Source of the DNA: Prosopocoilus inquinatus
Taxonomy: Eukaryota > Arthropoda > Insecta > Coleoptera > Lucanidae
Reading direction: 5' to 3'
Assembly (NCBI GenBank): GCA_036172665.1
Contig: CM069877.1
Span: 23,771,001-23,835,000, forward strand
DNA: 64,000 nucleotides
The position numbers and the translations under genes are program-made. The notes under the pieces are model-generated. The model did no database searches, was not told the DNA's origin, and saw only the letters and a program-made list of their open reading frames with translations. Numbering within the stretch: position 1 is the stretch's first letter; each line of letters opens with the position of its first letter. Of this stretch, positions 6,160 to 59,929 are shown one piece after another.

Positions 6160-7450
6160 ATGAAGCTGTGCAAGTTAAAAGTGAAAGAGCTGCGTGAGGA
6201 ATTAGAAGAAAGAGGCCTGGAAAATTCGGGAAAGAAAAGCGGCTTGCAAGAACGGCTGAAACAAGTTCTTGTAGATGAGGTAAAGACCCGGAAACATTTG
6301 AATTTGAAATTGAAGACGCGGCAGATCTACTGAAAGAAGTGAAAAAAAAATATGAAATTAGAAATGCAGAAAGTGAAAGAAAATATGAAATTACAAATGC
6401 AAGAAATTAACGGAAAAATAGAGGAAGTGAGTGAAAATGTGAAATTAGAAATGAAAATGGAAACTTACAGTTTAAAAACCGCTCTAAATATAGAAAATAT
6501 GAAGATGCAAATCGATGAAAAGATCGAAGATCTTAAAACCGAACATGACGAGAAAATTGAGGAAAAATTTGAAGATATCCGAATTTAATTTGGCAGTATG
6601 AAGTTTGAATTCAACGACAAACTTGACGAAAATTTTGTTGGAATAAAAATTCAGTTCCAGGATAAACTAGAAGACTTGACCAAACAACTGCTTAAAGTGG
6701 AGCTTGGTCGTACCATTGCACCATCAGCCAGGTCATCCAGTCAAATTGAAACCCACGAAATTTGAAGGCCACTTACCGTGGTCTACTTTCATTCGGCAGT
6801 CCAAAATTGCTGCTGATGTGAATGGCTGGATTGACTGTAACAAAGCCGCAGCACTCGTTTTAGCTCCGTGAGGTCCAGCATTGAATGCCTTACAGTCCAT
6901 TCCTGCGAAAGTCCAAAACAACTTTGATCAACTGGTGGAGAATTTGAAAATGCGTTATGGTGATGCACATATGAAGCAACTGCGTACCATTAAATTAAAA
7001 ACTCGTACCCAGAAAAATGGTGAGTCACTCCAATATTTTGAACTCGACATTAAGAGATTGGTACGCATGGCGTATAGAGATTTCTTGCCCGAACCAGTTT
7101 TCCATCGGTTGGCTGTCCAAGCATTCATCGACGGTGTTAAGGATCAAGAAATGCAGCAAGTATTGCGATTGGGTAACTTCTCTTGCACTGATGTACTGGC
7201 CCGTGTATTGGAATTCGAGGCAGCCAAGCAAGCCTCCAGAAATCTGGTATGCGTACGAGAGGTAAAAGCTGCTGATGAGAGTACCCTAACAGAAATCCTG
7301 GAAAGGCTGAAACACCTCGAAGAGAAGAAATCTACGAACAATAGCAGACGAATTACAACTTGTTGGAACTGTGGTAAACCAGGTCATTTGAGTTCCAACT
7401 GCCGGTGCAAACGGGCGTGCCAAGACGATGACAGTGAGTCTTTAAACTAA
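6160..7450 (+). pseudogene. gag: Gag of Gypsy element A (SAP, coiled coil, CCHC), broken
   Basis: The ATG at 6160 opens an LKVKELREELEERGL stretch that looks like a SAP nucleic-acid-binding motif (about residues 5-38). A frameshift near 6282 breaks it. A Lys/Glu-rich coiled-coil segment follows in another frame at 6352-6588. The main gag piece (6881-7450) ends in a CCHC zinc knuckle, CWNCGKPGHLSSNC, as expected for nucleocapsid binding to element RNA. At least two frame breaks and a stop at 6586 make it nonfunctional. Ty3/Gypsy identity is secure; the SAP call is by eye. Confidence 0.75.
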
Positions 7451-9640
7451 AACCAGTCAGCAAGAAGGGGCGCAAGCTGACTGATTCTCCAGATAGCCCC
7501 AAGATTGTCTCCATTTCCAGGATAAGGAACAATGAAAATAGCTTGATAGCAGATGGAAGAATTGGCGAGAGATCTTTCCAATTCACAATTGGTACAGTGA
7601 CGATACCCATCGGAACAGTGGTGGGCAAATGTGAAGCAATTGCTTCTGTAAACCACATTCAAGTAAACGATGCATCCGCTCGGCATCATTTTAATACTCT
7701 ACCACCACAACTAGAGAAATTGCTGGAAGATATATCAACATCGTTAACACCCATGGAAACAGAAGACATAGGAGGACTGTTTCGGAAATTCAAAAGAATC
7801 TTCGCCTTTACCGATGAAAACTTAATCCGAACGGACATTGTTCAGCAAAGAATAAACACTGGCGATTCGAATCCAATTCGCCAACCCGCACGAAGGCTGC
7901 CATTGGCGAGGAGAGAAGAGGCTGAGAAGTTAATCAAGAAGATGCAAGGCTAAGGAATTATTGAACCATCGCAAAGTCCATGGACATCTCCTGTTGTACT
8001 TGTAACTAAAAAGGATGGCAGCACGCGTTTTTGTGTGGCCTACAGGCGATTAAATGATATCACGAAAAAGGATAGCTATCCCTTACGTCGAATTGATGAC
8101 ACAATTGACACATTATCCGGTGCGAGATGGTTCTCTACTCTGGACTTGAAAAGTGACCATTGGCAAGTTGGAATGCATCCCGAAGACAAGGAAAAGACAG
8201 CCTTCACTGCAGGTACTGGTCTATGGCAGTTCAAGGTGTTGCCTTTTGGTTTATGCAACGCCCCAGCCACTCTTGAGCGACTCATGGAATTGATATTGCG
8301 TGGACTTAGCTGGAAGACTTGCCTCGTATACTTAGATGATGTGATTGTAGTTGGAAGAACTTTCAAAGAACACCTTGCAAATCTAAGGAACGTTTTCCAA
8401 AGGATTGAAGAGGCGAAGCTAAAATTAAATCCGGCCAAATGCAAGTTTTTCCAGAAGAAAGTGAATTACCTTGGACTTTTAACAACTTTTACACACTTTC
8501 TGTGTGGACTACAAGCAATTAAATGATATGACGAAAAAGGATAGCTATCCCTTACTTCAGATTGATGACACAATTGACACCTTATCCGGTACGAGATGGT
8601 TCTCTACTCTGAACTTGAAAAGTGGCTATTGGCAAGTTGGAATGCATCCCGAAGACAAGGAAAAGACAGCCTTCACTGCAGGTACTAGTCTATGGCATTT
8701 CAACGTGATGGCTTTTGGTTTATGCTGCGCCCCAGCCACTTTTGCGCGACTCATGGAATTGGTATTGCGTGGACTTAGCTGGAAGACTTGCCTCGTATAC
8801 TTAGAATGACGTGATTGTGGTTGGAAGAACTTTCAAAGAACACCTTGCAAATCGGAGGAACGTTTTTCAAGGGATTGAAGAGGCGAAGCTAAAATTAAAT
8901 CCGGCCAAATGCAAATTTTTCCAGAAGGAAGTGAATTGGACATGCCATCTCTGAGGTAGGAGTTGCGACCGACCCGGTCAAGGTTTTAGCTGTTAAGAAC
9001 TGGCCACCACCGAAGGTGTGCACGAATTAAGAAGTTTTTTGGTGCTCTGCACTTATTACAGACGATTCGTTAAGGACTTTGCAAAGGCAGCGAAACCTCT
9101 ACATGCACTGACCGAAGGAAAACCCACATTTTTCTGGAATATGGACTGCCAAGAAGCCTTTGACAATCTGAAGGATATTTTGGTGACTGCTTCTGTATTG
9201 TCTTATCCAAGATCAGAGTGCAAGTTTATTATTGATAGTGATGCTACCAACTATGGGATTGGAGGCGTACTCTCACAAGTGCAAGACGGTCAAGAACGTG
9301 TTATTGGTTACTTCAGTAAAGTTTTGTCAAAAGCTGAAAGGAACTACTGTGTAACCGGGAAGGAGCTTCTTGCCGTGGTGAAGACAACAGAACATTTTCA
9401 CAAGCATCTTTATGGTCGACAGTTTCATCTTCGAACAGACCATGCAGCATTGAAGTGGTTGCTTCAGTTTAAGAACATAGAAGACCAGCTTGCCAGATGG
9501 ATAGTAAGATTATAGGAATATGGTTTTACAATCGAACATCGTCCAGGTCGTGTCCATAATAATGCGGACGCATTCTCCAGAAGACATTGTCCTGAGGATA
9601 GTCGGCACTGCTCAGAAGCAGAAAATAAAGAAGGGATAAT
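7451..9640 (+). pseudogene. pol: Pol (RT, RNase H) of Gypsy element A, broken
   Basis: This is the reverse transcriptase and RNase H region of an mdg1/412-like Ty3/Gypsy element. The RT signature YLDD lies near 8330, RT motifs FSTLDLKS and FGLCNAPAT precede it, and RNase H motifs IIDSDATNYGIGG (about 9227) and [11 protein letters not shown] (about 9437) follow. The aspartic protease DTG motif is not visible, so protease appears deleted between gag and RT. Stops and frame changes (7951, 8525, 8807, 9513) inactivate it. Part of RT is duplicated in tandem (separate entry). Confidence 0.85.
8032..8940 (+). repeat. Tandem duplication within RT
   Basis: About 440 bp of RT starting 'tgtgtgg(c/a)ctacaagc' occurs twice, at about 8032-8470 and 8501-8940, with scattered substitutions. 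Both carry the same order of motifs through LSWKTCLVYL. In the second copy a one-base insertion breaks YLDD (near 8807). Confidence 0.8.
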
Positions 9641-9889
9641 TCCCATCAGAGAACTGACGTCGTAGTAGACAGGTGGCAAACCAATTAAGAGGGAACAGCG
9701 AGAAGATCCTTAAATAAGAACCATAATTGAATGGAAGGAAAGACAGCAACATCCCATCTGGGCTGAGATATCGGGGAAGAATCCAGTATTTAAAACTTAT
9801 TGGCACAATGGGATTCTCTGGAATTGAAGGATGGGTTGTTAATGAGAAAATGGAAAACACCTAATTGAAGTGAGATGAAAAACCGACTC

Positions 9890-10710
9890 CGGATAAGGAT
9901 CGCTGCGGTCCTGGAGGAGATTCATGACGGTACGTCCGGTGGACATTTGGGCATCAACAAGACATTGTCGAAAGTACGAGAAAGGTTCTACTAGACGAAA
10001 TGTAGAACTGATGTGAAAAATTGTTGTGCCAGGTGTACTACATGTGCTGCAGTATCCGGACCCGCGAAAAATTACACCCTTACAACGTTGGAGGACCATT
10101 GTAGAGGATTGCCAGTGACATAGCCGGCTCATTTCCAGAAACCAACCATGGAAACAAATACATAATGATAGTGACTGATTATTTCACCAAATTACCAGAA
10201 GATTATGCTTTACCAAACCAAGCGTCATTAATCGTTGTAAATGCCTTGTAAAGGCAGGAACTTTGAAGGATATATTTTCCAGGAATTGACCAGATTACTA
10301 GGCATTTTCAAAACGCGAACAACTCCCTGGCAACCACAGACAGATGGAATGGTGGAGCGTTTCAATAGGACTTTGGAGACACATCTGACTAAAGTTGTTT
10401 CGAAGAACCAACGGGACTGGGACGAACATCTTCCCCTTTTCCTGATGGCGTACCGTACTGCAGAGCATGACACTACTGAGCGAACTCCATACAGTGTCTT
10501 ATTCGGAAGAGAAATGCGTCTGCCTTGTGACTTAAAATTTGGGCGACCAGAAATTCGACTGGGACTACGTGAATACTCGCAAGAATTCGAACGCCGTTTA
10601 ATGAACTCTCACGAATACGTCCGACGTAATATCAGTTTGGCTACAGACAAAATGAAGACCCGCTACGATCGACGAGCCAATGAAACAAGATTCCAAGAAG
10701 TTAAGAACGG
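9890..10710 (+). pseudogene. Integrase of Gypsy element A, broken
   Basis: An HHCC zinc-binding region is recognisable but full of frame changes (9890-10060). The catalytic core with GRNFEGY and [12 protein letters not shown] (third acidic residue Glu) lies in an open frame at 10241-10714. A later piece of the domain lies at 12071-12195. The split is caused by inserted DNA. Confidence 0.8.
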
Positions 10711-11636
10711 TTAATAAAATAATTTCAAGATGGAAACTGGTGTACTCTATAAGTTAAATTATTATGTTATAAATTTACAGACAAAATTCTAGGCTAAAAA
10801 CTCGATTATTTCATAATTATTCGATTTATTTTATCAGTTCATTTCGTGCAAAGGCCCATATTCTAACCTCATCTTTAATTTAGTAATGCCGTGATTAAAT
10901 TCTCTATCACTCTCTTACTCATTAAATTCGCATAAAGCTATATCGTTTTTGTTTATTTTAATCATCGCTTTAGTTAGAGACGACTCTAATCGTGAGATAA
11001 GAATACGGGCCGTTGAATTTAAAATCATTAACCAAGCTTAAGCTCTAACTACGCTCAAGCTTGAACACATAACAACTACGCTAAAACCTGTTGGATGAGT
11101 TAATTCACAAGTGCTAGCTAGTGTGGCCAAAATAAGCGTTAAATGACGCGCTAAATCCTTTTGATGTGTCAAAACAGACCGCCACCGGAGCTATCGTTTA
11201 ACGTTTAACGTCATTCATAACGACGATAACAAATTAGCGTGTTAAACCGTGGCTACACCTATGTTTAATGCCAAATAGCGCAGTAATTAACGGCATTATG
11301 CGCTAGTGTGGCCCTAGCATATGCAAGAATGCCGAACTATCTGAATGCCGTTAAAGGAAAATTTATCTATAGAAGCATGGTAAATTTGAGAACGATAGGA
11401 GAGATAAGATAAAACAAAAGATCGCATAATTACGATTTTAAGCTATTAGAAATAACATGTCTGTGGAGGTAAGAGCTTTTTAAGATTCATGTATGCAAGT
11501 CGAATATATCAGGTCTTTACTTGATGATACTTTTTATCATTTATTTCAACTAAGGCGTTGAAACAAATGATAATATTGAAACAAATACTTTTTCGGCAGT
11601 TCTTGATTATAGTTCTCCTTTGCAATCGCCAAAAAC
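10711..11636. other. Insertion within integrase, MITE-like pieces
   Basis: Noncoding sequence separating two copies of the integrase tail. Imperfect inverted repeats around GGCCCATATTCTAA (about 10854) and GAATACGGGCC (about 11003) suggest a small MITE. The phrase AGTGTGGCC recurs at about 11119 and 11308. Confidence 0.4.
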
Positions 11637-11798
11637 TCGACTGGGACTAAGTGAATACTCGCAAGAGCTTGAACGCTGTTTAATGAACACTCACGAATAC
11701 GTCTGACGTAACATCAGTTTGGCGACAGACAAAATTAAGACCCGCTACAATCGAAGAGCCAATGAAACAAGATTCCAAGAAGGGGACAGGTGTACTAA
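11637..11798 (+). repeat. Second copy of integrase tail
   Basis: Nearly repeats 10556-10710 (LGLxEYSQEx...RYxRRANETRFQE). The element therefore has a direct duplication flanking the 0.9-kb insertion, or recombined with a sister copy. Confidence 0.7.
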
Positions 11799-12070
11799 AA
11801 TAGTAAAGGAGACTGTGGTTTAAGATAATTGAAATTAACCTCCGCCCACAATAATTTTTATATCCGTAGATACATATTTTGGCAGCCTAGCTGCCATCTT
11901 CAGTACGCTATCAACTTTAAGCACTAAAAAGATCTAATTAGGATGATTAGGTTGTTTTTAGATCTTTTTAGTGCTTTAAAGTTGGTAGTGTACTGAAGAT
12001 GGCAGCCTAGCTGCCGAAATACGTTTCTACGGATATAAAAATTATTGTGGGCGGAGGTTAATTTCAATTA
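11799..12070. mobile_element. Head-to-head pair of Penelope-like terminal repeats
   Basis: A minus-oriented copy (11799-11940) and a plus-oriented copy (11941-12070) abut to form a large inverted repeat. The flanks GGGACAGGTGT (11789) and GGGACCAGGTGT (12071) look like a target duplication of about 11 bp within the integrase gene. There is no coding sequence between them, so this is a terminal-repeat-only Penelope insertion. Confidence 0.65.
11993..12036 (+). ncRNA. Candidate hammerhead ribozyme in Penelope pLTR
   Basis: CTGAAGA, a 6-bp stem (GGCAGC/GCTGCC), GAAA, then a short hairpin (TACG..TACGG) ending in UA match the order of a type I hammerhead core (CUGANGA, stem II, GAA, stem III, UH). 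Stem I pairing is weak. Penelope-like elements are known to carry hammerheads. Versions with the same core are at 11.9, 17.3 and 33.9 kb. Confidence 0.4.
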
Positions 12071-12195
12071 TGGGACCAGGTGTGGCTATACAACCCCAGA
12101 AGGACTCGTGGTCTGTGCCCCAAACTACAGGCGGCTTGGGAAGGAACCTATCAACTAATTAAGAGGATCAATGATGTGGTCTGTAGGATACAAAA
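12071..12195 (+). pseudogene. Integrase C-terminal (GPY/F-like) piece of element A
   Basis: Encodes VWLYNPRRTRGLCPKLQAAW followed by EGTYQLIKRIND, which aligns with the same region of the intronic Gypsy ([19 protein letters not shown]). It runs straight into LTR sequence, so the gene end was deleted. Confidence 0.75.
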
Positions 12196-16200: not shown

Positions 16201-19200
16201 ACTTTGCACATGAAATCCACAGAAGGAAGTAGAATTTCTGCACACATGCTCAACGTAATAGTTACATCTCTATCGTTTACTCAGCCTGTAGAATACCGTA
16301 GTGTAAATCGTTCTTTAGATTGTCACATCAAGGACTTTTTACCAATCAGGTAAGGACAACGTTACTTGCACTTAACAAATAAGAAACATTTTTTTGCACT
16401 TTCTTATAGACACTGGGGATGTCCTGGTAATTTAAATGATTTAAGTATCGAATGGTATATGCCCGGCAAGACCGAGATAGATTGTGTTCAGAGTGTCTTA
16501 AATAAATACTTAGTACCTGAATTAGAAAAATTGAACAAGTATTCTGCAGGTGAATTAGAACTGACTAGGGAAGATTTAAATAGAACACTGAAGATTATCA
16601 TTGCGGTGCTTGGGGCACAGCCAGTGCTACCTTTGTGGCAAGAACCTGCTCTGCAAATGTAAGTCATTATATTTTACATTTTCCTCAATTAATTACACAG
16701 GCTAGAAAAAGGAATTTTATTTGAATAACGAGTTTAGAAACATTTACAATCAGTTTGTTCTTAATCTGTATCTGCTGTATAAGAGATGTCTTGCTATCTC
16801 GAATTTCTGGGTATAAACATCTTGAAAAAATCGTACTATTTTAAAAATCCGGTACACAGGGTGTTTGAAAATTGTTAATATAAAAAAAAAACTGTAGCGT
16901 CTGGAAATCCTAAGAAATCCAAGAAACCCATTAATTTTTTTTTTATACTTTTTCGTCAACTCATTATTTGTGTAAGCGACATTCACTTCGGTAATAACAA
17001 TGTACCGAGTTGTGACTGTTGTGACAACTTGTTAGATGTTACCTTAAGTCAGTGGCACAACAATTTTGGCCAAATTTTTAGTAATTTTTATCTCGAAAAC
17101 TCAAGGACTTTTATTCGATTTTTTTTGCCGATAACTTCAACTCACCATCATCATCTACTATCGGTATTTTCATCTCTCTTAAATTTAAAATACCCCTTAT
17201 TATAATTGAAATTAACCTCCGTTCACAATAATTATAACCGTAGATACGTATTTCGGCAGCTAAGTTGCCATCTTCAGTACGCTATCAACTTAAAAGCACT
17301 AAAAAGATCTAAAAACATCATCTAATCATCCTAATAAAATCATAAAAATGTTAAAACTAACAACAATCTAATCATCCTAAAAGATATATATGTGTAAATG
17401 TAAGTAAATATAAATTAATATATAAAGATCTAAAATTAGCCGTCAGAAAAACCTTACAAATAAGTTCTAACCAAACAACACGGAAATACGGAAAATACGG
17501 AATTTTTTTAGTAAATAGATTACTCTCTTTTCTACTTACTAAACCCCGATACGATAAAGAACTTAATAAATATATTAAAAATATTGCGGTTCATAGCGGT
17601 TATTTATACTCCCAAATAGTAGATAATATAATTAGGAAGATTAGCTATAGGAAACGGGTCCAAAATTCTAGCACTTTAAAGGCAACTTCATCTCAGAAAA
17701 ATTTGTTAAAATGCCTTTCGATCCGTTTTGTACCAAAGGTTTTAAAACCCAAAACTTACGATTAGGTTTTTTAACTAACAATACCATAAAGAATTTATTG
17801 GGAAACCCGAAAGATAAAGTTGATGTTGAACAGAAATCTGGAATTTAGAAAATTAAGTGTAACGACTGTACTGTTACGTTTCTAGGGTTTATGTTTATTT
17901 ATTTAAACGAATAAAACACTCGATAAAAACTTAACCGTAATTTAATAAAGCTTAAAAACTAATTTATTTGTAATAATTTATTTTCACACTAAAATCTAAC
18001 TTCGACGTTCGCTGTTAGAATTCGACTGACTGGTGAGTCAACCCGGGGCGATTTTATATCATTCGCCGCCGTCTGGAACTCTCTATGCGGGAAGATTCCA
18101 GTCTGTTCGATGTGACCCCGGTGTAGGCCCCGGTGGCGTGATGGCCGATGACGCACAACAGCGAACCGACCTCCTGACGCCCTCAGCGTGACGCAGCACT
18201 GAGCGGCTCGCCACACTGCCCCCTTCTTAAAAACGTTTCGTCTCGAAATGTTCCTGGTGATAGTCTTGAAGGAGGATGTCGGAATCTACAAGCTGGCCCA
18301 TTCTTGCAATTTCCCGTCTGGAAGAAGTAGCAGTCTACGGTTTTGCTGTTGCTGACTGTTGCCTGTGGGTGATGGCTGCAGACTAGGACTTCAATTCCCG
18401 TTCTGTGAAAGATGACTTCCAGCATGCTTCGTATTACTCTCCAGTCTAGTCCGTCCAATCCGCAGCCCAATTTGGGGATGGCCAACTTCATCTGATGGTT
18501 CTCTATTAGCTGTCTCCTCAGGCTATATAGGGCTCTCCACATACTTTGATAGTCAGGTTTACCGCTTGATGTCTTCTTAGTGACTAAATAATGCACGTGG
18601 CGCCTCCGATCTGCCGTCGAATCAATGATCTGCAAGCTCTTGCCTACCATGGGATGCTGTCTTCGTAGCTCCTCGATTTGGCCAAATTTCTTCCTAAACA
18701 CCTGAGCGATTCCTTTGGACATTTTCAGGTCTTCTGCTACGCAGTGAGCCAGACTGTACTCCAGTGGCACTTTAAAGAGATCTTGTTGCTTCTCCGTGGT
18801 CACTCCAAACCGTGCCTTGCTTCCTTCGGCGTGATGAGACATGAAGGTTTCGAAGTTCACTTCGGAAACTTGCGCCCTTTGTACTGTCCCTTCATCTGCT
18901 TCTCCATGGTAAGGGGCCATCCGGTTGAAGTGGATTACTTTGGGTTTGCCATGGGGGACCTTCTTGATGCGGTAAACGACGTCGTTGATCCGTTTCATCA
19001 CTTTGTAAGGACCTTCCCAAGAGGTCTGTAATTTTTGGGAGAGGCCTCGACGTCTTTGGGGGTTATAAAGCCAGACCAGTGCTCCAGGTTGGTATCCCCC
19101 GTGTTGAGCGTTGATGTCATAGTGCTCCTTCATCCGATCGCTGGCCGTCTGTATATTGTGACGCACTTGGTTGTGGATATCATCCATTTTCCTGCGTAAT

Positions 19201-22200
19201 TTGCTCACGTAATCTTCGTCGGCAGAGACTTCGCCAGGCTTCACACCAAACTTCAGGTCGCAGGGCAGTCTCGGCTCTCGCCCGAATACCACTTTCGCGG
19301 GAGTCTCCCCTGTTGTCTCATGAACAGATGAGCGGTATGCCATTAGAAACAGGGGGATGTACGTGTCCCAGTCCCTCTGATGATTGGAAACGACCTTGGA
19401 CAAATGTCGGTTGATGGTTCTATTGAACCTTTCCACCATTCCGTCCGACTGTGGGTGGAGTGCAGTTGTTCTAGTTTTTCGTACGCCGAGCAGAGTACAC
19501 ACGTTCTTGAACAAGGCCGATTCAAAGTTCCTTCCTTGGTCTGAATGCAGTTCCATAGGTGCACCATACCGACTGATCTATTCCCTGACAAGGACTTCCG
19601 CAATAGTGATTGCCTCTTGGTTAGGTAGGGCGTAAGCTTCAACCCACTTGCTAAAGTAGTCCATTACCACGACGATGTACTTGTTTCCACCATTCGTTTC
19701 TGGAAACGGGCCGGCTACATCGATGGCAACTCTCTCAAAAGGACTTCCAACGTTGTACTGTCTCATGGGAGCCTTACCCCGCCTGTGGGGGCCGTTACTG
19801 GCTGCGCAGACTGCACACTTTCTGCACCAATCCTTCACGTCCTCCTTGCAGTTCACCCAGTAAAATCTTTCGCGCACCTTCTCCATAGTCTTCTTAACTC
19901 CCAGATGCCCTCCCGAAGTTCCATCGTGAAGTTCCCGCAGAACTTCTGGCACCCTATTCTTGGGGATTAGTAACTGTGTCTTCTCTTCCATGCCTTCTGG
20001 ATTCTCCATGCTTCGTCTCAGAAGACCACGATCCAACACTATGGAGTCCCACTGCGCCCAGTATGATTTTACGGACGGTGCACATGGTGCTACCTCTTCC
20101 CAGGTAGGCCTCGCGTCCCTGCTTTTCCACTCTAGCACTAATTTCAAATCCGGGTCGTTCTCCTGGTCTCTTCGCAGTTCTTCGGCTTGCCATTTGTCGT
20201 CAACAATGGCTGTCCTCGCAGTCGTGGCTACTTTCTCGTCCAAACGACTACAGTGCTTACAGTCTTCGGTACAGGGTCTTCTCGACAAAGCATCGGCATT
20301 TCGATGGCTAGTTCCTGCCCGATGCTGAATTTCAAAATCGTACTCTTGAAGTCGTTCGATCCATCGTGCAACTTGCCCTTCTGGGTTCTTGAAACGGAGA
20401 AGCCATTTTAGAGCGGCGTGGTCGGTTCTCAGCAGGAAGCGTCTACCATACAAGTACTTGTAGAAGTGTTCTATCGTTTTTACGACGGCTAGCAATTCCC
20501 TTCTTGTGACGCAATAGTTTCGTTCCGGCTTTGATAGGACTTTACTGAAGTCGCCGATCACCTTCTCTTGCCCCTCTTGTATCTGGGAGAGTACGCCACC
20601 AATCCCAACGTTGCTAGCATCTGTGTCCACGACGAACTTGCCTTCCGGGAGAGGATAACTCAGAATAGGAGCACTAACCAAGTACTGCTTTAGTTGTTCA
20701 AAGCCAATTTGACACTGTTGGTCCCATTCAAATGGACGACCTTCTTCAGTGAGTTTTGTTAACGGCTTAGCAATGTCTGCAAATCCAGGAACGTAGCGCC
20801 GATAGTAAGTGCACAGGCCAAGGAAACTCCTTATTTGGTGTTTATTTCTGGGAGTTGGCCAGTCTTTCACCACCTGAATCTTCACAGGGTCCACGGCGAT
20901 TCCATTTCCATTAACAATGTGCCCCAGGTAATTCACTTCCTTCTGGAACAGGTGACACTTCTTGAGGCTAAGCTTTAGTCCAGCTCCGCGAAGCCGCTGG
21001 AACACTCCTTCCAGGTTCCTTAGGTGGTCGTCGAACGTCTTTCCCACGACAATTATGTCGTCAAGGTACACCATGCACGTTGTCCAGGACAGACCTTTCA
21101 GAACCGTCTCCATTAACCTCTCGAATGTCGCTGGGGCATTACATAATCCGAATGGCATCACTGTGAACTGCCACAGACCCATACCAATGGAAAACGCCGT
21201 CTTTTCTCGATCTTCGGGCGCCAGCTCCACTTGCCAATATCCACTCTTTAAGTCCAAAGTTGAGAAGATCTTTGAGCCGGCCAAGGTGTCCAGGGTATCA
21301 TCAATCCGTGGCAGGGGATAGCTGTCCTTCTTGGTGACATTATTGAGTAACCGGTAGTCTACAGAGAACCTGGTGGACCCATCCTTCTTCTTCACAAGCA
21401 CTACTGGTGACGCCCACGGGCTGCTTGATGGTTCTATTACATTATCCTTTTCCATCTCGCGAATAATGCGTTCCGCTTGCTCACGCTTCGCCAACGGTAA
21501 TCGCCTTGGAGCTTGACGGATAGGTCTTTCTTCTCCAGTCTCTATTTTGTGTTTCACGACATCAGTTCTTCCCTTGGATCCACTTTCTATCTCAAATACA
21601 TCTTGATAGCGGCCGATCAGGTTCTTTGCTTTTGTCTTCTGGTCTGGAGTCAATTCCTGGGCTGTTGACATAACCATTTCCCATAATTTCCTTGGGACTT
21701 TCGCTTCTGGCACGTTTGCTTTAAGGTGGCGGGAGATGGAGGACACCATGGTGCAGCTTCCCAAGATGGTTCCTTTCTTGATATTGACGGAGAAACAATT
21801 GACGTTCATCAGGCGGACAGGTACTTCCTTCTTCGCCGTCAACAACATTTTCCCAACGAGGACTCCTCTTCCAGTCCTTTGATCATCAGTATTAGGTTCA
21901 ACCATAATGACTTGCCCATCTTGAAAAACACCGTCCAGTTTTGCGTCGACGTTAACCTCAGTCCTGCTGGGTAATACAACGTCTTCAGCGAGGACTACTC
22001 GAGCGGCCACGTCTCCTCGTTGATGTAGAACCAATTCCTCATTATTGACCGCCATCACGCCACGCTTTAAGTCCAATTGGAACCCGTGGGCACACATGAC
22101 GTCCATGCCCAAAATTGCCTCGTCCTCTATATCTGCCACCAGTGCACGGTGTTTTATTGGAGTTGAACCAATGGTGATGATAACCTCTACTTCACCGTGG

Positions 22201-25200
22201 ACAGTTGCTGATGTTCCAGTTGCAGTTTTCAGTTTCCACTTGGTCGGCTCGGTGCGTCCAGATGACTTAATGACGTCGGGTCTTAGGATGGTCTTCGTCG
22301 CACCCGTATCCAACAACATGGTGTGAGGAATGTCATCAATGGTGACATCCACCTCCCTTATATAGTTAGAGCGCTCATTTCTCGAACCGCATAGAAACGC
22401 CTGAACTCCTTCGGGAATGTGCTGTAACCATCGCGAGTGTCAGCAGGTAAACAACGGTCGGTGGTGCCTACATGACTATCCCAACCTGTGGCGACGTAAC
22501 ATTATAATAGACTAAAAATTAAATTAAACTATCAATCAAATGAAAAAACCTCGCGCACCTGGGGTCAGGTTTTCAGTCATTACTTAACTTAGGTCTTGCT
22601 TTATTCTTAGAGCAATAATTATCCCGCAGTCAAGGTACAGATAACTGTTTTTATAAGGAAAAACCAAAAGCCAATGAAATGTTTTCATTGAATTTTCACC
22701 AAAATCAGGAAAATTTTCTCATTGTGACTTTCAGTTTGACTGATTATTAAAAATATACCATGCAATTATTTTGAAATGTAACATAGGGATACGGCGAAGC
22801 ATTGTTCGTAGGAGTGTAAGTTTAAAACCGAAAATTAAGAATAAAATGTTGCAAGTGAAAGAATAATAAATTTATCGTGTTTCTGCGAAGCTTAAAAAGT
22901 AACAAAAAATAAAGTATCGAGATGTACAGACGTAGATACTATAATGGCTATGTTCGTCATGACTATATATAGGAGAAATATATTTTGCACGGTTCAAATT
23001 CTAGTGAAGCAGGCAATATAAAATATTAGACCGTAGCGTGTAAACAAACGCGAGGGCTGCGGAAACAATTAAGCTACATTGCTACAGCAATGGTGTTACT
23101 CAGTATAACAAAAAACAGAGCAATATTGCCGCAATAAAAAATTACTTCTTGTTTAAATGTGTAAAGATTTTCAGAGTAATTAGTTGACCAGTTGTACCTC
23201 GACCGGCGGACTGTATTGCGACATTGCGTCATATAGTAAGAACGCCGTAAATTATTTTCACCGTCCCATTACATAATGTGCCTGTTCGATACATTTTTAC
23301 GGCGCTACTGAAACGATGGAGTGTACTTATTCAAATCCTATGCTTAGTCAAGACACTCAGGGCGCCAGAAGTATGAGGGAGAGCGACTGCGTTCCAGCGC
23401 ATGTAAGAATGAGAAAAATAATACCTCGAGTGTCATGTCGAATGCACCCATACTAGATACTATCTCGCTCGCCTATAAGGGAAAGATTTTGTGCGGGAAT
23501 TACGAATTGTATCCGTGGAAAGATGAAAAGTATCCGGATGCGGATACTTTAATAATTACCTGGCGGATACAGATAAGGAATACATTTCTCCCAAAGGATT
23601 CGGGTACAGTATCCGAATACTGTATCTGGATACCGAAGTATCCGAATACTACCCAGCTCTGACACATGCTCAACGTAATAGTTACATCTCTATTTTTTAC
23701 TTAGCCTGCAGAATACCGTATTGTAAATCGTTCATTATATTGTCACATCATTTTTTTTTTATTAATAAATGTGCATTTAAGTTAACATCGATATTATAAA
23801 CAATAATAAAAAACTCAAACCAACAAATTTTAACCGCAAGAAAAATTAAATCTTTTTTATCAATAAATCAGCCCTCAGCATTGCATGCATCAGGTATAAG
23901 GTGTACACTGCATATTTTGTTGCCATTTATTCAGTATCATGTTGGTATCATAAGTATTCTGCTGTACAAGAAGCAACAGTCGACGTTTGGAAATTTCAGT
24001 GAAATTTCTAAACGAAAAAGAAATTTCCAACAGTTAATAAATTTTCACAGAAATTTCAAAAACCTGGAAATTTCCACCCTTTTAGCAATTTCGAAGTGTT
24101 GAACTTTCAGCAAATTTCCTTAATCGTTTCACATTCCTAATCCCTACACATTATGTGAAATATCGTGAATCGATTGTTTTATCCAACACCTGTTTATTAT
24201 GAAGTCATAATAATGCCGATTTTGAACAGTTTAATTTTGGGTTTATAATTCCACTAGTGTTTTATAGACCTCATAATATATTCAAAATCAGCATTATTAT
24301 GGCTTTATAACAAACAGGTGTTGGAAAAAATTCTTTAAATTCAGTTCATATCTATCTTTGTTTCAAGTATTTATTTAGTATTATTTACTAAATAATTTAC
24401 AAAATAGTGAACGTAAGAAGTGGATACTTTTGAGATAAAAACAATGCTTTATTTAAAAAAGTTGAAAATAATTGAAAATGTGATAGCCATTTGTTTTACT
24501 AATGGTATCATCAAGTGGGAAAGATCGTGATGTCGTAAAAATGCAAATAGAAAAGTTAGTTATTGTAGTGGCTTGCCGTGAACACCCTTTGCAGTGATTA
24601 TTCATTTTAAATAATGAATTAATTAAAACACAAAACAACATGATTAAAACTAAACTACACTTACTTTATCCCAAAAGAAATAGCCAGGAAGCCATTTTTC
24701 AGAACCCTTTTTCACAGTCGAGTACACAACAGATTTAATAAAAGATTCTTCAATTTGCTTTGTATTTTAATAATGCATGACTTTTTAAGGGTGGACTCCT
24801 GTTTGGAACCATGGGCATTTGAGCTCATTGTAGGTAGTCAGTATAAAGTTTCAATGCCTGACGGAAGAAATGTAAGGAAAGTAATCGCCGACACTGTGTA
24901 CAAAGTGCAAAGACGGATACAAGAAGTTAACGAAGGAGATACCACGAGCTTAAAATCTATAATACATGTCAGTCACTTGTTTCCGTTAACATTCGTCTTC
25001 ATTAAACGTACACATTTTAGATATACGACATTTTGCTGTTCAACAAGTTCCGGGGACGTGATTTCGAAATGCACTGGAAGGCATTTCACATAACCAAGCG
25101 CACTCTCGAAGACCGGCTGCATCAGAAGAAAGAGCACTTGCGACACATCCTCATCGACAGAGTTATGTTGCATCAAGAGTTTCGTAATGAGAGTAGAAGT

Positions 25201-28200
25201 TGCTCTTTCACCGAAACGCACAAGCAGATTGTGCTGGCGCTTTTCGAGCTTGGTGTAAGCCGCTACAGTGTGGTAAGATACTTTTTTTTAGATATTCACG
25301 ATTAAACTAAAAAATTTATTCTGTGCCATTTCAGGTGAGATTGTTGGCTCAGACCAAGCTCTTCACTGCGGTGTCCACATTTTCTTATTCCTACACTATA
25401 CTGACGCCTTACATTAAAGAGATCTTGCAAATTGATAGTTCGAAACATCATGAAAAATTCAAGGGTTGCTTACATATTCTACTGGGGCCAAAGAACTCGC
25501 CGATTATTACGAGGCACGACTGGAAATTCATAAAGGATATATGGCCGGCGTTGGTCACTTCGATGCCTTCAGAAAAACCTTCTATAGTTAACTTGATGAG
25601 CGCTCTCAACGATGCCATCAATAAATATTTTCCTACCATCGCAATAAATCTAGAAATAAGTGAAGAATCTCTCAAGCCTGCGTTTGCTCTCACCGGAAAT
25701 GTTCCTAAAGTTGATTTAAATGATTTCAAGAATATCATAGAGAATAGTGTAGAAAAGTTACAATCGGGAAGTAAACAGAAGTACGAGGATTATAATTCGA
25801 TAGTGAACTTACTATTGCAAGCTGCTTTAAATGGAAATTTGTAAGTGAAAACTTCCTTTAAAAAAATTTATAATATTATGTACAGGGTGGAACAAATTTG
25901 ACACTTTTAAAGGGAAAAGTTAGGAAAAAACTAATCTCGGTGTCTCGAGCTTGATTTTTATTGCAAAATTAATAATGAAAACCGTGTTTCGATATCTTGA
26001 ACCGTTTGAGAATTACACGGTGCTTTTCTTTCTAAAAACATTCTATAATTTCCTTGTTTATGAAAATTTTCGATTTGTACAAAAACTTCTTTAAGACACT
26101 TTTTAACGTACTCTTCATACTCTTTGTTACATTTTTCAAAGGCCCGTAGTTTTTGAGATATAAGCTGAACTTTTGTTATGTGAAATAGCCTGTATACTGG
26201 GTGTCTCATAAGCTACGGAGGAGATTAAAGAGGTAGCTAGGGGAGATCAAATCAAAGATTTTTTCTTAATAAATTTTTTGGTAAAAAAGCAATAACTAAA
26301 GAATTACAAGAGTTTAAAGTGAAATTAATAAACAAACAAAAGTTACTCCCTGTAGTAATATTCTACCTATTAAATTCAAATTTGAAGCATTTGTGAGTTA
26401 ATTGAACACTGCTTTACAATAAACAACTATTTTAGAAAATGTAGTCACGTTAAAGTACGGCTATTTCACTTTTTCTTTTAATGCCCAAAAACGGGTTTCT
26501 ATCTCGTTGTGCACCGCCTACTAATTAAAAATCAAAACTAGGAAACAGATTAAACTAGACATTTTGTGAACGGTGGTTTTGATAAATTTAGAGTTTATTT
26601 AATAATAACGTTGCATTTGGTGAAATAATTTTGATTTATTAAGAAGTCATAGAAAAAATTTGTGCAAATCGTTTTTGATTGCAGTGAGAACCTCGAGCAG
26701 CCTCTGGACAGCTGTTTCAGCCCTGCTTGGGGCTTCTTCAGCAGAAACGTAGCTCGACATTCCCACTGCAGACCAAAAACGGCTTGCCCAATTTATTCGC
26801 AAATGCGATGTAAGAATGATGAACATATAAAATAGCGACATCTTACTATCGCTTTTTGACCTAACATTGCAGTAGGATAGACAAATTGAAGCGGGATTTG
26901 CTCCTAATGAGTCCCCCATGCAAGGCGGCCATGCTTGCTGTCAAAGCATAATGAAAGATTTTAGAAAAAATTTGTGCAAATCGTTTTTGATTGCAGTGAG
27001 AACCTCGAGCAGCCTCTGGACAGCTGTTTCAGCCCTGCTTGGGGCTTCTTCAGCAGAAACGTAGCTCGACATTCCCACTGCAGACCAAAAACGACTTGCC
27101 CAATTTATTCGCAAATGCGATGTAAGAATGATGAACATATAAAATAGCGTCATCTTACTATCGCTTTTTTACCTAACATTGCAGTAGGATAGACAAATTG
27201 AAGCGGGATTTGCTCCTAATGAAGTTATAAGTGTAAATTAAACAACAAATTAAGAAAGTTAAACTGCTGTAACTTTCTTATTATTGGGTTTTGGTCAAAA
27301 GCGAATTAAGAAAAAAGCTTTATTTTGATATCCTACAGTTGCCCTTTCAATCTCTTCCGTACGTTGTGAGACACCCAGTATTTTACCTTGATTTTTGTGT
27401 TTTGTATGAGTTGTGACATAAGAGTTATTTTATTTCATGGCGTAGTTTACATAATTTTTTCTGGCTTACGGGCGGCGGATCTATCGTCAAGTATAATATA
27501 ATATTATAATAATATTATAACCTAATACTTTTTTGACTTGATAATCGACCGTAAATGGGAATGGGAATAAGGACGCCACCACCACAAATAAATGTCAAAT
27601 AAATTTTTTAAAACTTATAAAATGAGACATATAAAAAATAACATAAAAACGTAACTGGGTCCTGAAAAAACGGGATAAAACGCTCTAGAAAATTACCAAT
27701 TGACAGAAACTACAGAAATAATACCAATACAAAATTTGCTTGGCTTCATTTGGAATTTGGAAACAGCATTGAGCCACATGTATTTTTATTTTCGGCCTCC
27801 ATCTAAAATTACTTATTTTCCATTCGTTCAAATAGTCCTGAAAACACTCTTTTGCATGTCAAGGCAGGAAAATTAAAGCAGAAATTTTGCATGAACGATT
27901 TTTAGATTGACTGAGTGACATTGAAGTGTCAAATTAAATCTCACAAATTAAACAAAAATTATTATTTCAGTGTTTTTAAACCATAATATAGCTAACATTT
28001 TCAATTTTTGTAATTCAAGCGTAGGTAACGTATTAAGTTAATTTATAAAAACATCTTTATGTTCAAATCACTACAGCGTTGAATTGTACCGCCAATATAA
28101 GACAGATAAATTTTCTAACCGACGCTATTTTAACAATAATAATTAATGTTTCAATTTATAAATATTGTCGACCGAAAAAAATATTACACGTCCAAAAACA

Positions 28201-48265: not shown

Positions 48266-51200
48266 GTACTCCCCCGCGAGTGAACTGGTTCCAGGAACGA
48301 TACTCTTTTCTTCTTCGCTCCAGGGTATGTTCGTAGGGTGGAATTGTCTCGTTCATGGTCTATTTCTGTAAAGGCTGGTTTTAAACGATCAATTGAAATG
48401 TTAGATGGTTTTCCGTCTAGGTCAACTTCAAAACAGCAATCATTTATTCTGCGAAGAACTTTGTAAGGTCCTTTATACGGTTGGTCTAGTGGTTTCTTGA
48501 CTCCATCCATTCTCACGAATACATGAGAGCATGTGTGAAGAGTTTTATGCACGAAAATTCTTGGTTTTTGATGGTGCGAAGTTGGCTGAGGTCGGATTTT
48601 CCTCATGGCTTGTCGGAGTTGTTCTAAAAAAAATGGTTTGGTCTTGCAGAAATTGTTCTTGGTGGAAGTATTCTCCTGGCAGTCTTAGGGTTGTACCATA
48701 AGTCATTTCTGCTGCCGATGTTCCTATATCTTCTTTGAGACTGTTTCTTAAACCCAATAGTACGATTGGGAGTGCTTTTGTCCAGTTTGCTGTCTCATGG
48801 CATTTTATTGCAGATTTCAAAGTCCTATGCCATCGTTCTACAGTCCCATTTGATTGTGGGTGGTAGGCTGTTGTTTTCACTGTTTTAGCTCCTATTATTT
48901 TCGTCATGGCATCGAACAGTTGCGAATCAAACTGTGTTCCTCTATCCGTGGTGATGATGGCCGGTGCTCCGAATCTTGACACCCATGCATTGAAAAATGT
49001 GTCCACGATGGTGTCTGCGGTGATGTCCTTTATAGGCACTGCTTCTGGCCATCGCGTGAAACGGTCTATCATTGTGAGGCAATAACGAAAACCTTGGGAT
49101 GTTGGCATTGGACCAATGATGTCCATGTGCACGTGGTAGAATCGTTCATCTGGTATCGGGATATGTTCAGGTCGACGTTTTATGTGTCGGCTGATTTTTG
49201 ATCGTTGACATGGTAGGCATGTGCGAGCCCAATCGATGATGTCTTTATTCATCGATGGCCAGACGAATTTTTCCGCAATTGCTCTTCTGGTAGCTCGTCC
49301 GCTGGTGTGTGCAGTGTTGTGCACAGTATCGAAAATCTTCTTCCTCAACGCTACTGGTATGTAAGGTCGAATGGAATCCGTGGATATGTCACAATATACT
49401 TTTGTTTCGGTTCCGTCGAGTCTTAATTGTTTAAGATTAAGTGACCCTGCATCTTGTAGTAGCTGTTGGAGTTCACCATCAGTAAGTTGACTTTCAGCGA
49501 TATCTTCGGTCGTTACGATCACAGGTAACTTGATGCTATCAATCCGAGATAGAGCGTCAGCTACGCAGTTGTCTTCTCCTGATATGTGAATAATGCTTGT
49601 GGTGTATTGTCCAATGTAATCCAAATATCTTTGCTGCCTTGGAGAAGCTTTAGATTGTTTCTGATTGAAAGCATAAGTTAGCGGTTTGTGATCCGTAAAG
49701 ATTACCGTATTTCTTCCTTCAATCATATGCTTAAAGAATTTCACAGACAGATAAATGGCTAACAATTCACGGTCATAAGCACTATATTTAGTTTGAGTTG
49801 GAGACATTTTCTTTGAAAAAAATCCCAGTGGTTGTCTTTTTCCATTGTCGATTTGTTCTAAAACAGCGCCTACTGCAGTGTCTGAGGCGTCGGTGACCAA
49901 AACTAGTTTGGCTTGTTCAGCTGGGTGTGCTAATAATGTTATTTCGCTGAGTTGCTTCTTACATTCGTAGAATGCTTTTTCAGCTGTTGGTGTCCACTGG
50001 ATTGGCCTTTTGTCCCGTTTCTTTGCTCCAGCCGTCAGCGCGTGAAGTTCTGCTTGTGGTTGTGCAGCGTTTCGTATAAATCTCCTGTAGAAATTTAACA
50101 TTCCCAGAAACCTTCTTAGTTCAAAAATATTTTTGGGTCTAGGTAGTTCCTGAAGAATCTTCACACGGTGTTCTAGAGGTTCAGTTCCCTTGATTGAAAC
50201 ACGGTGTCCCAAGTACTCGACGCTTGATTTTCCAAGGAAACATTTGCTTGTTTTGATCGTGAGTCCGTGGTGTTGTAGCCTTGCGAAAACTTGGTCCAGA
50301 TGATCTTTGTGTTCTGCTTCTGTCCTCGAAGCAATAAGAATATCGTCAATATAACAGAATGCAAAATCAATACCTCGAAGAACTGTGTCCATGAACCGTT
50401 GGAAAGTTTGAGCAGCGTTCGCTAAACCAAATGGCATCACTTGGAATTCAAACAGGCCAAAAGGTGTTATGATGGCGGTTTTCTTACTGTCTTCGGGTGC
50501 CATCGGAATATGAAAGTAGGCTCTTTCCAGGTCAATAGTTGAGAATATTGTGCATCCATGTAGCCTTTGGGCGATATCTTGTATGTGCGGCACCGGGTAT
50601 TTATCAGGAATTGTAATTTTGTTCAATGCTCTGTAATCCCCGCAGATTCGCCAGTTACCATCTTTCTTCATCTTCATAAGTATAGCGCTGGAATACGGAC
50701 TGTTTGATGGTTTGACAATGCCCGTAGCTATCCAGTTTTCAATTTCCTTTTTCGCTTGTCTGTACCTCTCTGGTGAAAGGCGTCTAGCATTGTCGGTGCA
50801 TGGTGGTCCTTTAGTTAGGATGTGATGCTGAACGTGGTGTTTAGGCTGTCGCAATTGAACTGGCTGTGTAACTTCAGGATACTTCTTCAAGACTTCATGA
50901 AACCTCATTTCACTGCTTACTGTAGTGAGTGTGGGTATTGTCGTTCTGGTGAATGATCCAGGCGTGGTTCTGCATGTCATGTTATCCACCAAACGTTTAT
51001 TCCTTAGATCAGGTAACAATTGGTATTCATGGAGAAAATCGTTTCCTAAGATGGGTAGACTGACGTCGGCGACGAGGAATGTCCAGGTGAACAAACGCTT
51101 CAGCCCTAGATCCAAAGTTAGTTGTGTTTCTCCGTATGTGTGAATCCTTGTCTCGTTTGCAGCGTAAAGGGTTTTGTTTGTCCATTTGGTATGTTTCACG

Positions 51201-56130: not shown

Positions 56131-56814
56131 TAAAATATATCCGTTTAACTCGTGTTAAACACTCTAATCAAACAATAATTCCGAATTAACTAATTCAGAT
56201 TTACTAATTATGATTAGGACAAACTACGATCGGTGCAACTCGAAAGTCTCTAATTCAGATTAGTTAACCTGTGTTAACGTTAATTGAGACTGAAATTGCA
56301 GGTCGTGAGTTAATTGCCGAATAAACTAACTCAAGTTTGTTAATCATAGATTAGGGCAAATTAAGGTCGGTGCAACTGAAAAGTCGCTAACTCAGATTAG
56401 TTAATCTGTGTTAACGTTAATCAAGGTCGGTGCAACTCAGCCTTAGTTTAAAAATTATATTATTGTAAACAAATTAATGAATTATCTAATTTCATTCAAT
56501 TTTTTTTTATAAAACACGTATTTATCTTTGCACGGATACTTCGAAAAATTGTTTCTTCGGGATAAATTCTCCACCGAGATTCAGAAATGTGTCCCGATAT
56601 TTTTAGGGTGAAAAGAACATCAACAAATAAGGTCATCTTTCTATACTGTGGCGAGCCACTCAGCACTACGTCACACTGAAGGCGTCAAGAAGCCGGTTCA
56701 TTATTATGCGTCATCAGGAGTCAGTCGAATTCTAACAGTGATCGTCGAAGTTAGATTTTAGTGTGTAAATAAATTGTTACAAATAAATTAGTTTGTAAGC
56801 CGCTCGAGTAGTCC

Positions 56815-59800
56815 TCGCTGAAGACGTTGTATTACCCAGCAGGACTGAGGTTATCGTCGACGCAAAACTGGACGGTGTTTTTCAGGATGGGCAAGTCATT
56901 ATGGTTGAACCTAATACTGATGATCAGAGGATTGGAAGAGGAGTCCTCGTTGGAAAAATGTTGTTGACGGCGAGGAAGGAAGTACCTGTCCGCCTGGTGA
57001 ACGTCAATTGTTTGTCCGTCAATATCAAGAAAGGAACCATCTTGGGAAGCTGCACCATGGTGTCCTCCATCTCCCGCCAACTTGAAACAAACGTGCCAGA
57101 AGCGAAAGTCCCAATGAAGTTATGGGAAATGGTTATGTCAACAGCTCAGGAATTGACTCCAGACCAGAAGACAAAAGAAAAGAATCTGATCGGCCGTTAT
57201 CAAGATGTATTCGAGGTAGAAAATGGATCCAAGGGAAGAACTGATGTCGTGAAACACAAAATAGAGACTGGAGAAGAAAGACCTATCCGTCAAGCTCCAA
57301 GGCGATTACCGTTGGCGAAGCGTGAGGAAGCGGAACGCATTATTCGTGAGATGGAAAAGGATAATGTAATAGAACCATCAAGCAGCCCGTGGACGTCACC
57401 AGTAGTGCTTGTGAAGAAGAAGGATGGGCCCACCAGGTTCTGTGTAGACTACCGGTTACACAACAATGTCACCAAGAAGGACAGCTATCTCCTGCCACGG
57501 ATTGATGATACCCTGGACACCCTGGCCGGCTCAAAGATCTTCTCAACTTTGGACTTAAAGAGTGGATATTGGCAAGAGGAACTGGCGCTTAAAAATCGAG
57601 AAAAGACGGCGTTTTCCATTGGTATGGGTCTGTGGCAGTTCACAGTAATGCCATTCGGGTTATGTAATGCCCCAGCGACATACGAGAGGTTAATGGAGAC
57701 GGTTCTGAAAGGTCTGTCCTGGACAACGTACATGGTGTACCTTGACGACATAATTGTCGTGGGAAAGACGTTCGACGACCACCTGGGAAACCTGGAAGGA
57801 TTGTTCCAGCGGCTTCGCGGAGCTGGACTAAAGCTTAGCCTCAAGAAGTGTCACCTGTTCCAGAAGGAAGTGAATTACCTGGGGCACATTGTTAATGGAA
57901 ATGGAATCGCCGTGGACCCTGTGAAGATTCAGGTGGTGAAAGACTGGCCAACTCACAGAAATAAACACCAAATAAGGAGTTTCCTTGGCCTGTGCACTTA
58001 CTATCAGCGCTACGTTCCTGGAGTTGCAGACATTGCTAAGCCGTTGACAAAACTCACTGAAGAAGGTCGTCCATTTGAATGGGACCAACAGTGTCAAACT
58101 GGTTTTGAACAACTAAAGCAGTACTTAATTAGTGCTCCTATTCTGAGTTATCCTCTCCCGGAAGGCAAGTTCGTCGTGGACACAGATGCTAGCAACGTTG
58201 GGATTGGTGGCGTACTCTCCCAGATACAAGAGGGGCAAGAGAAGGTGATCGGCTACTTCAGTAAAGTCATATCAAAGCCGGAACGAAACTATTGCGTCAC
58301 AAGAAGGGAATTGCTAGCCGTCGTAAAAACGATAGAACATTTCTACAAGTACTTGTATGGTAGACGCTTCCTCCTGAGGACCGTCCATGTCACTCTAAAA
58401 TGGCTTCTCCGTTTCAAGAACCCAGAAGGGCAAGTTGCAAGATGGATCGAACGACTTCAGGAGTACGATTTTGAAATTCAGCATCGGGCAGGAACTAGCC
58501 ATCGAAATGCCGATGCTTTGTCGAGAAGACCCTGTGCCGAAGAGTGTAAGCACTGTAGTCGTTTGAACGAGAAAGTAGCCACGACTGCGAGGACAGCCAT
58601 TGTTGACGACAAATGGCAAGGCGAAGAACTGCGAAGAGACCAGGAAAACGACCCGGATTTGAAATTAGTGCTAGAATGGAAAAGCAGGAACGCGAGGCCA
58701 ACCTGGGAAGAGGTAGCACCATGTGCACCGTCCGTAAAATCATACTGGGCGCAGTGGGACTCCATAGTGTTGAATCGTGGTCTTCTGAGACGAAGCATAG
58801 AAAATCAGGAAGGCATGGAACAGAAGACATAGTTACTAATCCCCAAGAATAGGGTGCCAGAAGTTCTGAGGGAACTTCACGATGGAACTTCGGGAAGGCA
58901 TCTGGGAGTTAAGAAGACTATGGACAAGGTGCGCGAAAGATTTTACTGGGTGAACTGCAAGGAAGACGTGAAGGATTGGTGCAGAAAGTGTGCAGTCTGC
59001 GCAGCCAGTAATGGTCCCCATAGGCGGGGCAAGGCCCCCATGAGACAGTACAACGTTGGAAGTCCTTTTGAGAGAGTTGCCATCGATGTAGCCGGGCCGT
59101 TTCCAGAAACGAATGGTAGAAACAAGTACATCGTCGTGGTAATGGACTACTTTAGTAAGTGGGTTGAAGCTTACGCCCTACCTAACCAAGAGGCAGTCAC
59201 TATTGCGGATGTCCTTGTCAGGGAATGGATCAGTCGGTATGGTGCACCTATGGAACTGCATTCAAACCAAGGAAGGAACTTTGAATCGGCCTTGTTCAAG
59301 AACGTGTGTACTCTGCTTGGCGTACAAAAAACTAGAACAACTGCACTCCACCCACAGTCGGACGGAATGGTGGAAAGGTTCAATAGAACCATCAACCGAT
59401 ATTTGTCCAAGGTCGTTTTCGATCATCAGAGGGACTGGGACACGTACATTCCCCAGTTCCTAATGGCATACCGCTCGTCCGTTCATGAGACAACAGGGGA
59501 GACTCCAGCGAAAGTGGTATTCGGGCGAGAGCCGAGACTGCCCTGCGACCTGAAGTTTGGTGTGAAGCCTGGCGAAGTCTCTGCCGACGAAGTTTACGTG
59601 AGCAAATTACGCAGGAAAATGGACGACATCCACAACCAAGTGCGTCGCAATATACAGACGGCCAGCGATCGGATGAAGGAGCACTATGACATCAACGCTC
59701 AACACGGGGGTACCAACCTGGAGTACTGGTTTGGCTTTATAACCACCAAAGACGTCAACTGCAGACCTCTTGGGAAGGTCCTTACAAAGTGATGAAACGG

Positions 59801-59910
59801 ATCAACGACGTCGTTTACCGCATCAAGAAGGTCCCCCATGGCAAACCCAAAGTAATCCACTTCAACCGGATAGCCCCGTACCATTGAGAAGCAGATGAAG
59901 GGACAGTACA
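56815..59910 (+). pseudogene. pol: Pol of Gypsy element C (RT, RNase H, integrase), broken
   Basis: RT, RNase H and the HHCC site match element B ([20 protein letters not shown]), but with a stop at 58830-58832 and a frameshift near 59709 from loss of one base in a G/A run. In the integrase core the second catalytic Asp is Asn (HSNQGRNF), and in RNase H the conserved RTDHAALKW is RTVHVTLKW. The element is therefore dead in trans as well as in frame. Confidence 0.88.
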
Positions 59911-59929
59911 AAGGGCGTAAGTTTCCTAA

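Follow-up and report, generated by a model that had tools for sequence, protein, structure and literature searches.

We analyzed a stretch of 64,000 nucleotides from the lucanid beetle Prosopocoilus inquinatus (GenBank assembly GCA_036172665.1, contig CM069877.1, positions 23,771,001 to 23,835,000), referred to as a whole as the window. Its minus strand carries the 3' part of a Ty3/Gypsy retrotransposon in which the Pol polyprotein continues, beyond the integrase, into a TARG1-like (OARD1-like) macrodomain and a CCCH zinc finger. An initial annotation, made from the sequence alone, had proposed this fusion, and our analysis confirms it. The parts of the element are as follows, in window positions and in the order in which the element reads.

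19578-22439, minus strand: upstream Pol piece of 953 amino acids, with protease, reverse transcriptase (RT), RNase H, the integrase zinc domain and the N-terminal part of the integrase core
18183-19577, minus strand: open frame of 464 amino acids, with the C-terminal end of the integrase core, p58/SH3, macrodomain, CCCH finger and a terminus within the long terminal repeat (LTR)
19263-19577, minus strand: C-terminal part of the integrase core (rve; sub-threshold rve match at residues 3-39, matches to Ty3 and prototype foamy virus (PFV) integrases)
18909-19079, minus strand: integrase SH3/p58 C-terminal domain (Integrase_p58_C above the Pfam cut-off at residues 189-222; SH3_Tf2-1 at 27.6 bits against 30)
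18372-18815, minus strand: TARG1-like macrodomain, frame residues 255-402 (sequence match to TARG1, predicted fold)
18576-18578, minus strand: equivalent of TARG1 Lys84, frame residue 334
18453-18455, minus strand: equivalent of TARG1 Asp125, frame residue 375
18276-18332, minus strand: CCCH zinc finger, C-X7-C-X5-C-X3-H (zf-CCCH 26.1 bits, cut-off 20.5, residues 412-436)
18216-18229, minus strand: polypurine tract, read from the sequence and translated within the Pol frame
17858-18215, minus strand: 3' LTR of 358 bp with TG...CA ends, which as a query matches the LTRs of other copies

The order protease, RT, RNase H and integrase with a p58/SH3 C-terminal end is that of Ty3/Gypsy elements (Metaviridae); here it is spread over two pieces that were profile-searched separately. 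One stop separates the 953- and 464-residue pieces, so the full fusion, initially annotated as in frame, is not a single open frame in this copy. A database protein (P0228) holds RT to p58 and the finger in a single chain, with the macrodomain between them. The Pol frame crosses the polypurine tract and terminates 33 bases within the 3' LTR: finger and LTR do follow each other as annotated, except that the frame itself runs into the LTR. The window copy is a 5'-truncated remnant, cut off 5' of the protease, and no gag was recognised upstream of its Pol. Its 5' LTR is missing, since 16500-26500 contains no direct repeats that reach 40 bases; the window copy has the 3' LTR and the tract, and paired LTRs are seen in other copies. 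No chromodomain, which would have marked a chromovirus, was among the 13 Pfam families listed up to an E-value of 10, in searches whose HMMER filters remove most matches above E ~0.1.

Sequence match and predicted fold, taken together, are decisive for assigning the domain to the TARG1/DarG class, as a putative ADP-ribosyl-hydrolase. In a phmmer search against solved structures, human TARG1 (2eee) is the top match, with an E-value of 5.3e-29. Five TARG1 chains head the list, and the next macrodomain among the best 60 of 132 matches is a DarG chain (5m3i, 5.7e-5); identity to the DarG macrodomain is 21-23%. The predicted fold agrees with the same class. The generic Pfam Macro model (PF01661), an HMM check suggested at the outset, stayed below threshold for the window copy (17.8 bits against a cut-off of 22, E 0.0033) and gave 16.8 bits for a second copy in the window, leaving the TARG1 match and the fold to settle the matter. 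This model is weak for the TARG1 class, because two cellular-looking proteins scored 27.4 and 17.0 bits under it. The domain is of the annotated class and is somewhat longer than annotated, at about 145 residues in place of about 137. The equivalents of Lys84 and Asp125 are conserved as claimed; we number human residues on the 160-residue TARG1 chain minus what we take to be an 8-residue tag, and we assume Asp125 to be a TARG1 catalytic residue. The finger has exactly the annotated spacing, fits the zf-CCCH pattern (C-X7/8-C-X5-C-X3-H) and scores above cut-off. Among the 76 relatives with a tail of at least 45 residues, 66 carry a CCCH finger with identical spacing and 53 an RRGQC-like protein terminus; the tails of another 18 of the 94 relatives were shorter than 45 residues and fall outside these counts.

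Two further copies in the window had not been noticed initially.

56647-60484, plus strand: second copy, with an internal deletion (95.7% identical in DNA across 3689 bp), an LTR remnant joined to Pol
59975-60418, plus strand: macrodomain of the second copy
63761-64000, plus strand: integrase part of a third copy, cut by the window end

The second copy is disrupted by stops and frame changes. Searching the beetle's own genome (649.6 Mb) gave 1385 first-look candidates, which are not firm copy numbers; 150 of them were scored and 150 matches listed. The protein is identical in 58 of the 150 listed matches, the window's own included, and no stop lies inside the macrodomain in 149 of the 150, an intactness figure that is skewed upward because the scored matches are the best ones. 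With the window LTR as query, two LTRs were found in all seven other copies whose ends were fetched, copies that had been picked for long frames. They span 6.4-6.8 kb from LTR to LTR, and the alignment of each pair, over 301-359 sites, shows 1 to 3 differences and 1 or 2 gap columns. As these pairs are nearly identical, the window family multiplied recently. Across L059-L072 the LTRs are of two kinds, with ~97% and ~88% identity to that of the window copy; both kinds occur in young macro-bearing copies.

We further searched 5.8 billion proteins and obtained 2012 matches, the best 120 of which were listed. The macrodomain is present in 79 of these 120, and all 79 have an integrase-homologous stretch upstream in the same protein. 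With the many copies in the beetle's own genome, this bears out the expectation that the integrase-macrodomain join would recur elsewhere. Named sources of the macro-bearing matches are the beetles Harmonia, Aromia, Diabrotica, Callosobruchus, Molorchus, Exocentrus and Gonioctena; a macrodomain-only search adds Brassicogethes, Pyrocoelia and the leafhopper Macrosteles. Element macrodomains, including that of Macrosteles, form one clade (36 rows, support 100/98), and the OARD1-like proteins of Macrosteles quadrilineatus and Diabrotica undecimpunctata sit within it. These two are probably retrotransposon pieces rather than host genes, which matters for annotation. Among the 41 listed matches without a detected domain, 37 end at most 23 residues from the aligned p58 region (natural and contig ends counted alike), 18 have RDE or RDD near the end (counted by eye), and one, P0063, contains the start of the domain. 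On the integrase tree, 30 macro-less rows group against the window side (82/99). The window side itself includes seven more rows in which no domain was detected, and five of these seven come from contigs that are 1.0-1.7 kb long. With four of the seven omitted, this tree needs at least four changes of state. We infer that domain and finger entered once at the base of the window lineage, between p58 and the tract-overlapping terminus. A viral contig collection gave 1 and 56 pattern matches, none confirmed as relatives.

The macrodomain is under purifying selection. We aligned 88 near-full element macrodomains (61 distinct), keeping those whose match to the query started no later than position 25 and reached at least position 138. 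The Lys84 position is Lys in 83 of the 88 and the Asp125 position Asp in 81, with both retained in 80, across distant beetles and a leafhopper. Sites conserved in at least 90% of relatives match human TARG1 in 35 of 50 cases, against 20 of 85 at the other sites. Position 35, which is Ser in human TARG1, is Ala in 81 of the 88. Between the first two window copies, the macrodomain shows 12 synonymous and 9 nonsynonymous changes, a ratio of nonsynonymous to synonymous rates (dN/dS) of 0.208 (p 0.0007); the ratio is 0.258 for integrase and 0.366 for the rest of Pol. Comparing 34 genome copies with the window copy gave 176.5 synonymous differences and 102.5 nonsynonymous ones, against a neutral expectation of 77% nonsynonymous; because of their shared history, the comparisons are not independent. 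Neutral decay of the domain, which the initial annotation had named as an outcome that would count against it, is not borne out.

The domain is not confined to the end of Pol. A third protein search (33 matches) returned P0236, with the order protease, RT, RNase H, macrodomain, integrase, and P0238, whose macrodomain is divergent and lies at its extreme C-terminus; P0189 resembles a fragment of the P0236 kind. When the beetle's own genome was searched with a flea OARD1, it yielded 151 matches, many in long frames, from 1304 candidates, again a first-look number, with 150 scored. The window order of integrase, p58, macrodomain and CCCH finger was found in 13 of 38 loci examined. In L010-L020, L022, L024, L028, L030, L032, L036 and L038 the macrodomain lies upstream of RT, and open frames of 1764, 1916 and 1953 amino acids recur in the list of such loci. 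Upstream of the macrodomain, a protease scores above the Pfam cut-off in five of seven pieces (L010, L019, L022, L024, L027); L038 has a sub-threshold protease match, and the 115 amino acids scanned upstream in L029 have no Pfam match. Inspection of 13 loci placed RT in the macrodomain's own open frame in L010, L019, L020, L022, L024, L028 and L038, outside that frame in L026, L029 and L032, and nowhere in the stretches of L021 (which begins inside Pol), L027 and L034. L021 belongs to another integrase family, with the macrodomain after p58 and then 214 residues without a Pfam match. L033 resembles a window-type copy that has lost its integrase through deletion. The window finger found no match in the protease-macro-RT loci or L021, where 1.5-2 kb on each side were searched. 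All 13 non-window loci checked by pattern carry the catalytic Lys and Asp motifs. Pairwise dN/dS is 0.18 for L010/L019, 0.22 for L022/L028, 0.29 for L020/L022 and 0.25 for L020/L024, with dS near saturation in all four; it is 0.38 for L027/L029, and 0.66 and 0.49 on few changes for two near-identical pairs. It is safe to state that the domain stands at several Pol places in several lineages. The finding thus reaches several positions and several Ty3/Gypsy families, further than was first annotated.

A tree of RT-RNase H (20 rows) rejects a single macro-bearing clade in the approximately unbiased test (p-AU 0.029); its macro-less rows number only six, of which five are close relatives of the window lineage (three of these less than half filled) and one sits on a very long branch. 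The macrodomain trees separate the groups without rejecting one clade. A single insertion as the whole story is rejected by this RT tree together with the other Pol positions. As for a donor, L034 (C5:3752910 in the beetle's own genome) is a candidate host gene; it has two or more TARG1-like macrodomains in tandem, a GT-AG intron that interrupts the domain, and an RS-rich stretch. It is closest to an Onthophagus taurus protein (97/94, 3' piece only) and clusters, with modest support (91/82), with the window clade and one of the protease-macro-RT groups, 21 rows in all.

We read the window element as a member of a Ty3/Gypsy lineage that has captured a TARG1-type macrodomain and a CCCH finger on the end of Pol, the macrodomain serving as an eraser that counters host ADP-ribosylation, and we give this a probability of about 0.6. 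The initial interpretation of the fusion is supported, and countering PARP signalling, whether on the element's DNA or at its integration complex, would be a plausible role. Being part of Pol, the macrodomain would be packaged into the particle along with integrase. It would act during reverse transcription or in the nucleus, hydrolysing ADP-ribose that host PARPs add to the element's complementary DNA (cDNA) at exposed ends and single-stranded gaps; alternatively, its substrate may be ADP-ribose on integrase and nearby chromatin. Integration would then not be blocked. The finger probably binds RNA, perhaps the element's own. The cDNA of such elements carries free ends as well as single-stranded gaps. 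At every position seen the domain is in Pol and therefore travels with RT and integrase, and since related families place it at different Pol positions, selection would keep its delivery with Pol and not one fixed site. Excerpts of the TARG1 literature describe PARPs 1-3 modifying phosphorylated DNA ends in vitro and TARG1 removing PARP1-made ADP-ribosylation of telomeric DNA (PMC11102865), as well as TARG1 reversing thymidine-linked ADP-ribose in a Lys84-requiring manner (PMC8501950). Travel in Pol, this literature and the free ends and gaps of the cDNA together lead us to prefer an eraser whose target is the cDNA or the integration complex, and the occurrence of the domain at other Pol places in the same genome suggests that ADP-ribose removal matters for the multiplication of these elements. 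We advance more tentatively, at less than even odds, the broader idea that insect LTR elements face an unrecognised barrier when host PARPs ADP-ribosylate their cDNA or integration complex, and that Ty3/Gypsy elements have answered it repeatedly with a TARG1-type eraser at several Pol positions, the finger adding RNA targeting in one lineage.

Several observations weigh against this interpretation. Lys84 or Asp125 is missing from the alignment in 8 of the 88 relatives, and P0006, P0130 (Diabrotica), P0051 and P0056 are changed at both positions with the frame kept. Hydrolysis is thus not needed in every lineage, and the macrodomains of these four are possibly binders only. The macrodomain ratio of 0.208 between the window copies is based on few changes in dead copies, and its difference from the rest of Pol is not significant (Fisher p 0.35). 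The macrodomain trees do not reject one origin, either for the window clade with P0236 and P0189 (p-AU 0.30) or for all element rows as one clade (p-AU 0.196), so repeated capture from hosts is not proved and shuffling of the domain among elements is possible. The role of PARP-1 in retroviral integration is itself described as disputed in the part of PMC4808796 that treats it.

These lineages with altered catalytic residues also lend something to the idea that the macrodomain is a reader, which tethers integrase to ADP-ribosylated chromatin, for instance at breaks, and directs integration as a chromodomain does in chromoviruses. In the window family the domain occupies the integrase C-terminus, where chromoviruses carry their chromodomain as an extra domain, and a reader role may hold in some Diabrotica elements. 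A pure binder need not retain Lys84 and Asp125, but 80 of 88 relatives keep both, and where the domain lies between protease and RT, or separates RNase H from integrase, it would be poorly placed as a tether if Pol is cleaved; we rank the reader second to the eraser and consider it unlikely as a general account. A little less likely again is action on RNA or in the cytoplasm, in which the domain would strip ADP-ribose added by antiviral PARPs from Gag, Pol or the ends of element RNA, with the finger binding element RNA. The finger's fixed spacing in most long-tailed relatives fits this, as does the coronavirus macrodomain, an ADP-ribosylhydrolase whose inactivation attenuates the virus, as reported in a portion of PMC10499221. 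The lack of a finger match in the protease-macro-RT loci and L021, where the residues after the macrodomain have no Pfam match, argues the other way, and the closest class, TARG1/DarG, acts on DNA-linked ADP-ribose according to sections of PMC8501950 and PMC11102865.

That the domain is a neutral passenger, a piece of host gene carried by chance in one family, would suit the fact that the window copies are themselves dead. We reject it as very improbable given a dN/dS of 0.21, a catalytic pair kept across distant beetles and a leafhopper, and the presence of the domain at several positions in several families. A chance match or an artefact of assembly or annotation is rejected as well, the latter having nothing in its favour and hardly any probability left: the TARG1 match is strong, two copies lie in one window, the genome has 150 matches, and relatives come from independent public sources.

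Retroelements are known to acquire such domains. An orchid Ty3/Gypsy element likewise carries an acquired eraser, as passages of PMC9289625 describe; that one is an AlkB N6-methyladenosine (m6A) RNA demethylase of a plant element, encoded in an additional open reading frame (ORF), whereas the present domain is ADP-ribose hydrolase-like, fused within Pol and found in several families and positions. Epsilon-like endogenous retroviruses of fish also carry a macro domain (Basta et al. 2009, via PMC4977317); they are retrovirus-like, with the domain in additional ORFs, and its class is not stated in the text of PMC4977317 that covers them. Compared with human TARG1/OARD1 (C6orf130), the domain here, of putative activity, is part of Pol and is followed by a CCCH finger; the DarG macrodomain of DarTG differs in being a bacterial antitoxin. 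The retroviral dUTPase is another host-type enzyme that stands at different Pol positions according to lineage, with other chemistry. A search of the open literature brought up no report of a TARG1-type macrodomain within Ty3/Gypsy Pol; it leaves most subscription papers and Repbase outside its scope and does not prove absence. With an acquired eraser in Ty3/Gypsy and macro ORFs in fish retroviruses already known, the new features of this variant are the TARG1 type within Pol and its unusual breadth. Capture of host enzymes by retroelements indicates host pathways that restrain them; an ADP-ribose eraser that recurs in Pol would give a lead to ADP-ribose-based restriction of retrotransposons.

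Elsewhere in the window, a plus-strand frame at 15386-16096 matches the proteasome activator PSME4 (HEAT_PSME4_mid, E 6e-31); the element lies ~1.8 kb from it on the opposite strand. The sole additional stretch tested for a further PSME4 exon, 25311-25841, gave no match. A related, decayed Ty3/Gypsy element is left in pieces at 6872-12193 on the plus strand, with a gag zinc knuckle and p58 and no detectable macrodomain. A Ty3/Gypsy Pol that is less closely related (36% identity over RT-RNase H) lies at 48358-50833 on the minus strand, and a Pol polyprotein piece with a Pol_BBD domain, presumably Copia-like, at 61244-61801 on the plus strand.

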